64,000 nt of DNA from Reyranella sp. (GTDB lineage: Bacteria > Pseudomonadota > Alphaproteobacteria > Reyranellales > Reyranellaceae). Positions 32,577 to 36,325 of this stretch are shown in pieces (the first letter of the stretch is position 1; every line of letters begins with the position of its first letter). The DNA lies in the NCBI GenBank assembly GCA_029946105.1, contig JAQSDW010000002.1:1-64000 (forward strand), written 5' to 3'. The notes under the pieces were generated by a model, which was not told where the DNA came from, did not search any database, and saw nothing but the letters and a program-made list of their open reading frames with translations. The position numbers were made by a program, and so were the translations under genes.

Positions 32577-33704
32577 GTGTCCGCGCCCAAGCTTCTTCAG
32601 ATCGTGCCCACCCTCGCCGGCGGCGGCCTCGCCCGCGCCACGCTCGATACGGCGCAGGCCGTGATCGCGGCGGGCGGTTCGGCGCTGGTTGCCTCGCCGG
32701 GCGGCGCCATGGTGCCCGACCTCCTGCGGCTGCGCGCCACGCACATCGAGCTGCCGGTCGACGGCAACCGGCTGTGGGGCCGACTCGCGCTGCCGCGCAA
32801 GCTGGCAAGTTCGCTGCGCGACGCCCGCGTCGATGTCGTGCAGGCCCGCTCGCCCGCCACCGCCTGGATCGCCCGCGCGCTTGCCCGGCGGCTCGGCAAG
32901 AAGTGGATCGCCACGCTGCATCGCCCGTTCGTCGCCGACGACCTGATGGGCCGCTTCCTCGAGCGCCGCCAGATGCGCGCCGATGCCGTGATCGCGGTGT
33001 CCGAGCATGTCGCGCGCGATGCCGGGCAACGCTTTCCGGCCCTCGCCGACCGCCTCGAAACCATTTCGCCCGGCATCAACTTCGATCGCTTCGATCCGGC
33101 GATCGTGCGCGCCGACCGGGTGATCCGCCTCGCGGCCGACCTGCGCGTGCCCGACGGCAAGCATCTCGTGCTCTGCCCGGCGCGCCTGGGCGAGGACAAC
33201 GGCCAGAAGATCCTGATCGAGGCGCTGCGGCTGCTCGGCCGCGACGACGTGTTCTGCCTGCTGCTGGGCTCGGCCGGCGCGCCGACGCCGTTCGAACGCG
33301 AACTCGAGCGCGCCATCGAGGCGGCCGAGCTGCACGGCCGGATGCAGATCGGCCCCTACGTCGACGACATGCCGGCGGCCTACATGCTGGCCGACGTGGT
33401 GGTGGCGACCGGCGGCAGCCGGCAGGGCTTCAGCCGCACGCTGGTCGAGGCCCAGGCGATGGGCCGGCCGGTGGTGGCCGAGGATGGCGGAGGTGCTGCC
33501 GAAACGCTGCGGCCCGAGGTGACGGGCTGGCTGGCGCCGCCGGGCGACGCCGCGGCGCTGGCGGAGGCGCTGCGGAGCGCGCTGTCGCTCTCGACCGAGC
33601 GCCGCGCCGAGGTCGCGCGTGCCGCCCAAGAGCATGTCCGTGGCCGCTACGCGCTGGCCGAGGCCAACCAGCGCTTGCTGGCGCTCTACGAACGCCTGGC
33701 CTGA
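32577..33704 (+). CDS. Glycosyltransferase family 4 protein
   Basis: Product of 375 aa from a GTG start. It has the GT-B fold of family 4: N-terminal VPTLAGGGLARATLD for acceptor binding and C-terminal RQGFSRTLVEAQAMGRPVVA with the E-x7-E-type donor motif. It probably transfers a sugar to lipopolysaccharide or a related glycan at the inner membrane. No sugar pathway genes are adjacent to refine this. Confidence 0.92.
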   Translation: MSAPKLLQIVPTLAGGGLARATLDTAQAVIAAGGSALVASPGGAMVPDLLRLRATHIELPVDGNRLWGRLALPRKLASSLRDARVDVVQARSPATAWIARALARRLGKKWIATLHRPFVADDLMGRFLERRQMRADAVIAVSEHVARDAGQRFPALADRLETISPGINFDRFDPAIVRADRVIRLAADLRVPDGKHLVLCPARLGEDNGQKILIEALRLLGRDDVFCLLLGSAGAPTPFERELERAIEAAELHGRMQIGPYVDDMPAAYMLADVVVATGGSRQGFSRTLVEAQAMGRPVVAEDGGGAAETLRPEVTGWLAPPGDAAALAEALRSALSLSTERRAEVARAAQEHVRGRYALAEANQRLLALYERLA

Positions 33705-33706
33705 CC

Positions 33707-34168
33707 ATGCCCAGCCTGACCACTCTCGCCCTGCTTCTTGCCGTCGCTGCCGCTCCAGCCGTCGCGCAGATCCCGATGCCGCCGTCGGGTGGGCCGACCG
33801 GCCAGTTCCTCGGCCCGCCGACCGGCACGGTCGAGGATTTCATCGGCAGCTGGGATCTCACCTGGGAGGGCCCGACCGGCTCGGGTTGTCCGTGCAGTGG
33901 TGTGCTAACGATCGAATTGAAGCGCACGGCCAGCGGCGAGGGCCTGGTCGGCATTTGGTCGATGAAGGGTGCCGCCGCCACCCTGCGCGGGCCGGTGTCG
34001 TATCACCAGACTGTCTGGGCCGGCGACTTCGCCCAGCCCTTCGACAGCTCGGATTATCCGATGAAGGGCTCGTTCCGCCTGCTCGCCCGCGACAGCCGCA
34101 CGCTCACCGGCTCCTACCGCCGCGACGGTACCGCCGTTCCCTTCAGTTGGACGGCCACCCGCGACTGA
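33707..34168 (+). CDS. Small secreted protein of unknown function
   Basis: Product of 153 aa from ATG 33707, two bases after the glycosyltransferase stop. Signal peptide MPSLTTLALLLAVAAAPAVA, then a single beta-rich domain with GTVEDFIGSWDLTWEGPTG and two near-adjacent Cys (CPCSG). It looks like a lipocalin-type fold but no family is certain. Probably translated together with the upstream gene. Confidence 0.75.
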   Translation: MPSLTTLALLLAVAAAPAVAQIPMPPSGGPTGQFLGPPTGTVEDFIGSWDLTWEGPTGSGCPCSGVLTIELKRTASGEGLVGIWSMKGAAATLRGPVSYHQTVWAGDFAQPFDSSDYPMKGSFRLLARDSRTLTGSYRRDGTAVPFSWTATRD

Positions 34169-34188
34169 CCGCACGGCGGCCGCCCAAC

Positions 34189-34217
34189 TTGACTCTGGCG
34201 GGCCACGCAACTATCTC
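34189..34217 (+). promoter_or_regulatory. Promoter of the thrS leader
   Basis: TTGACT (34189-34194), 17 bp spacer, TATCTC (34212-34217). Transcription would start about 34224-34226, which coincides with the ATG of the Thr-rich leader ORF. Confidence 0.6.
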
Positions 34218-34224
34218 CGGCCCC

Positions 34225-34278
34225 ATGGACCGACTGTTCTTCAGCGCTCCGACGACACCCACCACCGACCGAACTTGA
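34225..34278 (+). CDS. Thr-rich leader peptide of thrS (putative, leaderless)
   Basis: A 17-codon ORF encodes [17 protein letters not shown], with five Thr in the last eight residues (acg aca acc acc act codons). It ends 103 bp before thrS and is followed by competing hairpins. Its ATG lies 8 bases after the -10 box, so the mRNA would begin with AUG, as known for the leaderless trpL of Sinorhizobium. No ribosome-binding site is needed or seen. The arrangement fits a ribosome-stalling attenuator sensing charged tRNA-Thr. Too short for the ORF track; translation is inferred. Confidence 0.6.
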
Positions 34279-34280
34279 TT

Positions 34281-34373
34281 CGGCCGGGCGCGCGCACTTG
34301 TGCCGCTTCCCGGCCGGCATCCGCCGACGCCCCGCGTCGGCCGATGGGCTGTGTTCGGATTCTTTCCAATCGG
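34281..34373 (+). promoter_or_regulatory. Candidate thrS attenuator hairpins
   Basis: CGGCCGGG (34281) pairs with CCCGGCCG (34309-34316). GCCGACGC (34323) pairs with GCGTCGGC (34334-34341). CCGAT (34341) pairs with ATCGG (34369-34373), next to the probable thrS ribosome-binding bases. CGGCCG occurs at three places (34281, 34311, 34339), so alternative pairings exclude each other. There is no long U tract, so control may act on translation or on rho rather than by an intrinsic terminator. Confidence 0.5.
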
Positions 34374-34381
34374 TGGTTGTC

Positions 34382-36325
34382 ATGATCAATATTTCCCTGC
34401 CGGACGGTTCGGTCCGGTCGTTCGATAAACCGGTGAACGGCGCCGAAATCGCCGCCTCGATCGGACCCGGCCTTGCCAAGGCAGCGCTCGCGCTGCGAGT
34501 CGACGGCAAGATGGTCGACCTCGGCCATGTCGTCGACCACGACGCCAAGATCGGCATCGTGACGTCGAAGGACCCGGCGGCGCTGGAACTGCTGCGTCAC
34601 GACGCGGCGCACGTGCTGGCCCAGGCCGTCCAGGAACTCTTCCCCGGCACGCAGATCACGTTCGGCCCATCAACCGAGGACGGCTTCTATTACGACTTCG
34701 TGCGCGCCGAGCCTTTCTCGCCGGACGACTTCGCCAAGATCGAGCAGCGGATGGGCGAGATCGTCGACCGCGACCTGCCGATCGTGCGCGAGGTCTGGGA
34801 TCGCGCCCGGATCAAGGACTACTTCGTACAGCACGGCGAGAAGTTCAAAGCCGAATGGGCCGACGAACTGCCGAAGGACGAGATCATTACCGTCTACAAG
34901 CAGGGCGACTGGCTCGACATGTGCCTGGGGCCGCACCTGCCCTCGACGGGCAAGCTCGGCAAGGCGTTCAAGCTCACGAAGGTGTCAGGCGCCTACTGGC
35001 GCGGCGACAAGAACAACGCCCAGCTCCAGCGCGTCTACGGCACTGTCTTCTTCTCCGACAAGGACCTGAAGGCCTACCTCATGCGCATCGAGGAGGCCGA
35101 GAAACGCGACCATCGCCGCCTCGGCCGCGAGATGGGCCTCTTCCATCAGCAGGAAGAAGCGGCCGGCATGGTGTTCTGGCACCCCAAGGGCTGGACGTTC
35201 TGGCGCACGCTCGAGAGCTATCTCAGACGCAAGCTCGAGGCCGGCGGCTATGTCGAGGTGAAGACGCCGCAGCTCGTCGACCGCAAGCTGTGGGAAGAAT
35301 CGGGCCACTGGGAGAAGTTCCGCGAGAACATGTATCTCAGCGAGAACGAGGATGGGCTGCGCGACTACATGGCCGATCCGGCGCATCGCATCTTCGCGTT
35401 GAAGCCGATGAACTGCCCGTGCCACGTGGAGATATTCAACGTCGGCCTCAGGAGCTATCGCGAGCTGCCGCTGCGCATGGCCGAGATGGGCTCATGCCAT
35501 CGCTTCGAGCCGTCGGGCGCCCTGCACGGCATCCTGCGCGTGCGCAACTTCACGCAGGACGACGCCCACATCTTCTGCACCGAAGACCAGATCGAAAGCG
35601 AGACGATCCGCTTCTGCAAGCTGCTCGACGAGGTCTATCGCGATCTGGGCTTCACGGACTATTTCGTGAAGTTCTCAGACCGGCCGCCGGTGCGCGCCGG
35701 CACGGACGCCGTGTGGGACCAGGCCGAGGGCGCGCTTCTGTCGGCCTCCAAGGCCGCCGGTCTCGACGTCATCCTCAATCCCGGCGAGGGCGCGTTCTAC
35801 GGCCCGAAGCTGGAGTTCGTGCTGCGCGACGCCATCGGCCGCGACTGGCAGTGCGGCACGCTGCAGGTCGACTTCGTGCTGCCCGAGCGGCTCGATGCGA
35901 CCTACGTGGCCGAGGACGGATCGCGCAAGCGGCCCGTCATGCTGCACCGCGCCATCTTCGGCAGCTTCGAGCGCATGATCGGTATTCTCATCGAGAATTA
36001 CGCCGGCCGCTTCCCGCTGTGGCTGGCGCCGACGCAAGCGGTGGTGGTCACGGTCGTGAACGACGCCGACGCCTATGCCAACGAAGTCGCCGACGCGCTC
36101 CGCGCCGTCGGCATGCGGGTCGACACCGATCTCAGCAACGAGAAGATCAACTACAAGGTCCGCGAGCACTCGCTGGCCCACGTGCCGCTGATCATCGCCG
36201 TCGGTCGGCGCGACATGGAGGCCCGTACGGTGGCCATCCGGCGCCTCGGTTCGGACAAGCAGGAGGTCCTTGAACTCGGGGCCGCCGTCACTACACTTTC
36301 AATTGGAGCCCGGCCGCCCTTCTAG
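34382..36325 (+). CDS. thrS: Threonyl-tRNA synthetase
   Basis: Product of 647 aa from ATG 34382; the track start at 34298 runs through the attenuator. Domains in order: TGS (about 1-65), second additional editing domain (65-240), class II catalytic core with the zinc ligand Cys in MNCPCH and motif 2 near [11 protein letters not shown]-type sequence, and the anticodon-binding domain (545-647). It charges tRNA-Thr. Preceded by the Thr-rich leader and followed by infC. Confidence 0.98.

Follow-up and report, generated by a model that had tools for sequence, protein, structure and literature searches.

A putatively leaderless, threonine-ending leader ORF upstream of thrS in Reyranella and its family: a probable translational attenuator

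How do Reyranella and its relatives control the gene for threonyl-tRNA synthetase, thrS? We found that thrS in a Reyranella sp. genome is preceded by a 17-codon, putatively leaderless open reading frame (ORF), here named thrL, whose last threonine codons lie on an RNA strand complementary to the thrS Shine-Dalgarno region. Comparison of 60 loci from five genera lends good support to the view that this leaderless, Thr-ending ORF controls thrS through the position of the ribosome on it. We consider a ribosome-mediated translational attenuator the best reading of the element, and a probable one; in it, we infer the transcription start, the translation of a leaderless ORF, the role of Thr-tRNA as signal, and the way in which thrS responds. 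Were this reading correct, an entire family of bacteria would regulate an essential tRNA synthetase through a leaderless micro-ORF, with the cognate codons locking the ribosome-binding site. Such a compact feedback circuit would link tRNA charging directly to synthetase translation, and it would be a third kind of thrS control beside the Escherichia coli operator and the T-box.

The Leader ORF and Its Promoter

The window—the whole 64,000-nt stretch of Reyranella sp. DNA that we analyzed—carries thrS at 34382–36325 (ATG at 34382; TIGR00418 thrS match, E = 3.6e-194), with infC as the next gene; these and all features below are on the forward (+) strand. The leader ORF occupies positions 34225–34278 and reads ATG GAC CGA CTG TTC TTC AGC GCT CCG ACG ACA CCC ACC ACC GAC CGA ACT TGA, and a gap of 103 nt separates its stop from the thrS start. 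Its promoter consists of a −35 element TTGACT (34189–34194), a 17-nt spacer, and a −10 element TATCTC (34212–34217), with 7 nt between the −10 element and the leader ATG. ORF, hexamers, spacing, and gap are exactly as a preliminary description of this DNA had given them. We predict a transcription start on the A of the leader ATG or on an adjoining base; the leaderless status rests on the −10-to-ATG distance, which is 6–8 nt across 60 loci. A search of the entire 5.6-Mb genome for TTGACN-N16..18-TATCTC-N5..9-ATG returned this single occurrence, and the reversed control gave 0 matches.

A longer, mechanically called open frame begins at 33619 and has the 17-codon ORF as its tail. In 25 of 60 relatives, an in-frame stop lies within 90 nt upstream of the leader ATG, and only 4 of these 25 have a further in-frame ATG or GTG after that stop. 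We thus take the ATG at 34225 to be the conserved start.

Conservation within the Genus

How constant is the element among close relatives? The region was matched by DNA search in 53 of 61 same-genus genomes (41/41 counting only good assemblies), and a protein search found no complete thrS gene in the assemblies of any of the nine genus genomes without an element match. Genus counts given here refer to the 50 distinct loci that were read, and family counts to those 50 plus 10 loci from four other genera. The arrangement TTGAC-N17-TATNT[C/G]-6..8 nt-ATG-17 codons-TGA was present in 50/50 genus loci; L068 has two overlapping TTGAC motifs, and its spacer is 17 nt when the second is taken. Across the family, TTGAC followed by a 17-nt spacer recurs in 60/60 loci, as does a −10 element of the form TA[TC]NT[CG] at equal spacing, 6–8 nt 5′ of the ATG. 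Aligning the region upstream of thrS in relatives, the check proposed in the preliminary description, bore out the short ORF in every genus locus (50/50) and in all 10 loci from other genera. Its length is 54 nt throughout the genus, with invariant ATG and TGA, whereas the gap to thrS ranges from 100 to 117 nt.

The 3′ end of the ORF, ACC-N3-CGA-ACT-TGA, is kept in all 50 genus loci, and codons 14 (ACC), 16 (CGA), 17 (ACT), and 18 (TGA) are identical in each of them, with zero synonymous change. Codon 13 is ACC in 48 loci and ATC in 2, a change from Thr to Ile that preserves a U-G pair with the thrS Shine-Dalgarno sequence. The expected conservation of the Thr run holds for Thr14 and Thr17 (50/50) but not strictly for Thr13, which is Ile in 2/50. 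The last eight leader codons include three to five Thr across the genus and two to five across the family. Codons 2–12 vary, and their excess of synonymous change is not significant (16 changes versus 13.9 expected, P = 0.29), so the peptide itself is probably not the signal; nascent-peptide arrest was rejected on the same ground, as the N-terminal residues are without significant constraint. By sequence comparison, conservation of the leader element is far beyond chance. The ThrS of L139, an alphaproteobacterial MAG, is 87% identical.

Predicted RNA Structure over the thrS Ribosome-Binding Site

What structure does the leader transcript adopt? When the transcript is folded from 34225, the predicted minimum-energy structure (z = −2.9) contains a long-range closing helix between 34261–34274 and 34353–34377. 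Its first part, P1, pairs the anti-Shine-Dalgarno strand ACCACCG (34261–34267), which holds the Thr13-Thr14 codons, with CGGTGGT (34371–34377), which holds the thrS Shine-Dalgarno sequence. Its second, P2, pairs CCGAAC (34269–34274; the last base of codon 15, the Arg16 codon, and the start of the Thr17 codon) with GTTCGG (34353–34358). Two hairpins are enclosed: A (34282–34315, GGCCGGG...CCCGGCC), which begins 3 nt past the stop codon, and B (34323–34341, GCCGACGC...GCGTCGGC). Most of 15 relatives are predicted to fold like the window's transcript. The three mutually exclusive pairings of the preliminary description were thus a misreading: in this fold, hairpins A and B stand side by side inside the long-range helix.

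Comparative evidence for these pairings comes from 50 sequences. Taken together, P1, P2, A, and B are paired in 93.4% of cells, versus 23–46% with the partners slid by one to three columns. P1 cells are paired in register in 88% of cases and P2 cells in 97% (50 species), and the stem pairs of hairpin A are kept at 93–100% in the genus. Both-side changes and the covariation score lay above all 500 shuffles. Compensatory changes fall mostly in hairpin B (4 of 8 pairs); the long-range helix contributes two pairs, at columns 13-121 and 15-107, the latter occurring as CG, UG, UA, or AU across species. GGTGA replaces the GGTGG Shine-Dalgarno sequence in 12 loci, and the same 12 have ATC at codon 12, so that a UCACCA:UGGUGA pairing is possible one codon earlier; because the 12 loci look like one clade, the co-change counts as one event.

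We also modeled the effect of a ribosome on the leader. With its footprint masked, opening the thrS start region cost about 5 kcal/mol in the model instead of 8.6; for the window genome, the cost dropped from 10.7 to 5.0 kcal/mol. The mean unpaired probability of the Shine-Dalgarno sequence rose from 0.04 to about 0.27 in the model, a partial release only. A ribosome on a Thr codon and one on the stop codon opened the site about equally, and the model does not separate them.

A separate peculiarity was seen in one species (G057, locus L070): At the end of its leader region, 5′ of thrS, some 15 bp around the Shine-Dalgarno sequence are duplicated in tandem (CAGTCGGTGAACAAT).

Other Genera of the Family

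Does the element extend beyond the genus? Leaderless geometry was found in 60/60 loci of five genera. In each of the ten loci from the four other genera, the ORF is in frame, spans 17, 22, or 23 codons counted from the predicted start, and closes with Arg-Thr-stop (CGA ACT TGA); two bases and then CGGCCGG come next. ORF length differs between genera by whole codons, and the Arg-Thr-stop end is unchanged. CGGCCGG stands 2 nt past the stop in 60/60 family loci, and the hairpin behind the ORF is retained in the other genera.

Pairing with the Shine-Dalgarno region outside the genus, as read from the sequences, is clear only in some loci. It is clear in g279, where GAAC..GAGGC pairs with GCCTC..GTTC near thrS, and in L225, with an 11-bp helix CGAACTTGAGA:TCTCGAGTTTG near thrS; in L219 (another genus), AACCGCC was seen by eye opposite GGCGGTT near thrS. 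Start-region pairing was no better than in shuffled sequence in L224, L226, and L228 and not significantly better in L219 and L227. The element was not found in the sister-family sequence L229. A class-wide homologue was also rejected: The covariance model was convincing only inside the genus and weaker upstream of thrS in the other genera of the family, and its other class-wide matches were weak, some consisting of hairpin A alone.

Two further features of these leaders stand out. The segment CGAACTTGANNCGGCCGG (window 34270–34287), which spans Arg-Thr-stop and the hairpin A base, is identical in 60/60 family loci, beyond apparent pairing need; as a search pattern with one mismatch, it proved uninformative, being common to many GC-rich genomes. 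In the leaders of L220–L224, L226, and L227 (genera g279 and g136), the CGAAC (Arg-Thr) motif occurs twice; the additional copy sits 15 nt 5′ of the one at the leader end and could be an alternative pairing strand.

Mechanism and Alternatives

How might the leader act? In a translational attenuator, transcription would begin at the AUG of the 17-codon leaderless ORF. With the 3′ end of the ORF free of ribosomes, its ACC-ACC would pair with the thrS Shine-Dalgarno region and its CGA-AC part with GUUCGG; the closed helix would bridge the two-hairpin spacer (A and B), and thrS would be poorly translated. With charged tRNA-Thr in short supply, ribosomes would dwell on Thr codons 13, 14, and 17 and cover the anti-Shine-Dalgarno strand, leaving the Shine-Dalgarno sequence free and allowing more synthetase to be made, and slow Thr decoding would prolong this open state. 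Departure of the ribosome from the last codons would let the Thr-Thr and Arg-Thr codons lock the Shine-Dalgarno sequence. The short upstream ORF that defines such attenuators is present, in frame and with its stop conserved, across 60 loci (its translation is predicted), and P1 and P2 provide a structure that involves the leader ORF and hides the ribosome-binding site in the genus, with a mixed picture in other genera.

Ribosome-mediated transcription attenuation, as for alphaproteobacterial trpL, would instead end transcription before thrS, by intrinsic or Rho termination, when Thr-tRNA is plentiful. The leader has the run of cognate codons typical of such attenuators (three to five Thr in the genus), Rho could still cut short an untranslated thrS mRNA, and a second alphaproteobacterial family, f58, appears to work in this way, with Thr-rich leaderless leaders, complementary GGAGGG and CCCTCC segments, and a terminator (see below). 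However, we found no intrinsic terminator or terminator-like site before thrS, the hallmark of trpL/thrL-type attenuators, at 34100–34450; hairpins A and B are without a directly following U-run in 50 relatives; and the conserved pairing extends to the Shine-Dalgarno sequence. A Trp-like transcription attenuator was thus rejected for the Reyranella family for want of a terminator, and transcription attenuation in any form is unlikely here. Translational attenuation fits better, given that our search detected no intrinsic terminator and that the conserved helix takes in the Shine-Dalgarno region of thrS. Of the ribosome-stalling attenuation proposed in the preliminary description, the leaderless Thr-ending leader stands on the comparative data, whereas the implied trpL-like transcription attenuator does not.

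Is threonine the signal? Leader translation might instead serve as a coupling or basal-level device that constantly keeps the start region of thrS open, without responding to Thr in particular. Pairing partly confounds the inference of a Thr signal, since the Thr codons double as a helix strand with frozen synonymous positions; RNA pairing can account for much of the conservation of the last codons. The two loci that swap Thr13 for Ile yet keep the pairing count against the Thr reading and suit a coupling device, as does the similar opening by modeled ribosomes at Thr and stop codons. Such a device is nevertheless quite unlikely in our judgment: Two to five of the last eight codons specify Thr in every genus despite differing pairing partners, unrelated Thr-rich leaders precede thrS in f58, and Streptomyces has a leaderless thrL. 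Thr as the signal of the translational attenuator is thus independently supported by the other genera, which keep Thr with different partners, and by f58.

A third alternative, autogenous repression, would have ThrRS bind the leader hairpins as an E. coli-like operator, with the short ORF secondary. The nearly frozen sequence at the hairpin A base, which exceeds pairing need, would suit it, and in the genus a UYGUG near the hairpin A apex resembles the tRNA-Thr anticodon. Yet genus g136 does not preserve the anticodon-like triplet, and the operator would leave unexplained why the leaderless ORF is so constant and stays in frame from genus to genus; we regard this explanation as very improbable. 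A T-box riboswitch was rejected as well: An Rfam scan of 34100–34600 up to E = 5 matched neither a T-box nor any other family; the two sub-threshold hits that it gave are unrelated.

Relation to Known Systems

Feedback control of thrS at the mRNA leader is familiar from the E. coli thrS operator and the T-boxes of Firmicutes, neither of which is known to have a leader ORF. The Reyranella-family element shares feedback at that place and differs in having a leader ORF and no Rfam T-box match. In ermC-type translational attenuators, a stalled leader-ORF ribosome frees a sequestered ribosome-binding site; stalling there depends on drug and nascent peptide, whereas the putative sensor here is a set of amino-acid codons that are also part of the anti-Shine-Dalgarno strand. 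Among synthetase genes, E. coli pheST has a leader-peptide attenuator. In bacilli, hisS paralogues are reported to have one (PMC2965389), as are trpS and leuS in Streptomyces (PMC1262725). All four resemble the present case in having cognate codons in a short ORF 5′ of a synthetase gene; they are described as transcription attenuators, and in the passages covered, none is an alphaproteobacterial thrS.

Closer parallels exist in leaderless leaders. The trpL of Sinorhizobium meliloti is a leaderless, 14-codon leader with cognate codons, its transcript starting at the ATG (PMC7298713). It is likewise an alphaproteobacterial leader peptide, leaderless as the Reyranella-family one is predicted to be, but it serves a biosynthetic operon through a transcription terminator, in contrast to the synthetase gene, Shine-Dalgarno pairing, and absence of a terminator here. 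In Streptomyces lividans TK24, an RNA-seq study (PMC8079986) reports a leaderless thrL upstream of thrS, with 18 codons (MKRVRPFLETTPGFVPAR, then stop) and no clear terminator. Like the predicted leaderless ORF here, it is short, contains Thr codons, and sits immediately 5′ of thrS; it differs in its unrelated peptide, in having two Thr, and in its actinobacterial host, and the passages covered do not describe pairing with the thrS ribosome-binding site (PMC8079986). The preliminary suggestion that no such mechanism is described for thrS was therefore too strong, given the S. lividans thrL (PMC8079986) and the terminator-type version in f58. A leaderless thrL before thrS is already known, and the Reyranella-family version is a new variant, not a new mechanism class. 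Among the papers that a search of open literature found, none describes an alphaproteobacterial thrS leader.

Other thrS Leaders in Alphaproteobacteria

Do other Alphaproteobacteria place Thr-rich leaders before thrS? A scan of some 160 additional thrS upstream regions, most of them from other alphaproteobacterial families, brought up family f58, with Thr-rich leaderless leaders 5′ of thrS (e.g., MTARTTTTATTTRTSCGGP, then stop) behind TTGACA promoters with an 18–19-nt spacer and a −10 element beginning TA. At 7/8 loci, a GC-rich hairpin is followed by TTTTTT 55–58 nt past the leader stop, and the CCCTCC arm of the CCCTCCCGG...CCGGAGGGTTTTTT terminator is, by eye, the complement of the leader codons GGA GGG. 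From its sequence, this layout appears to be a classical-looking thrS transcription attenuator in Alphaproteobacteria.

The f58 leaders share no recognizable sequence with the Reyranella-family leader, so that a Thr-coding leaderless thrS leader has probably originated repeatedly or been rebuilt. They support the Thr logic of the Reyranella-family leader. We give roughly even chances to a broader picture, in which the Thr codons here may be at once sensor and anti-Shine-Dalgarno strand (ACC-ACC versus GGUGGU), so that thrS translation would report tRNA-Thr charging without a terminator, and Alphaproteobacteria may have two outputs, occlusion here and termination in f58. The terminator-using f58 lets one ask how such attenuators arise and switch output.

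Two minor observations may be added. In G104 (L316, 136–217), a Thr-rich ORF, MRTHPVLRSTATTTTTATGGRWRMRA, lies 5′ of thrS and is followed by a GC-rich hairpin; this ORF was not found again in relatives of G104. Unrelated leaderless Thr-rich leaders before thrS, mostly followed by a terminator, occur at L271–L277 and L279 (f58) and at L143.
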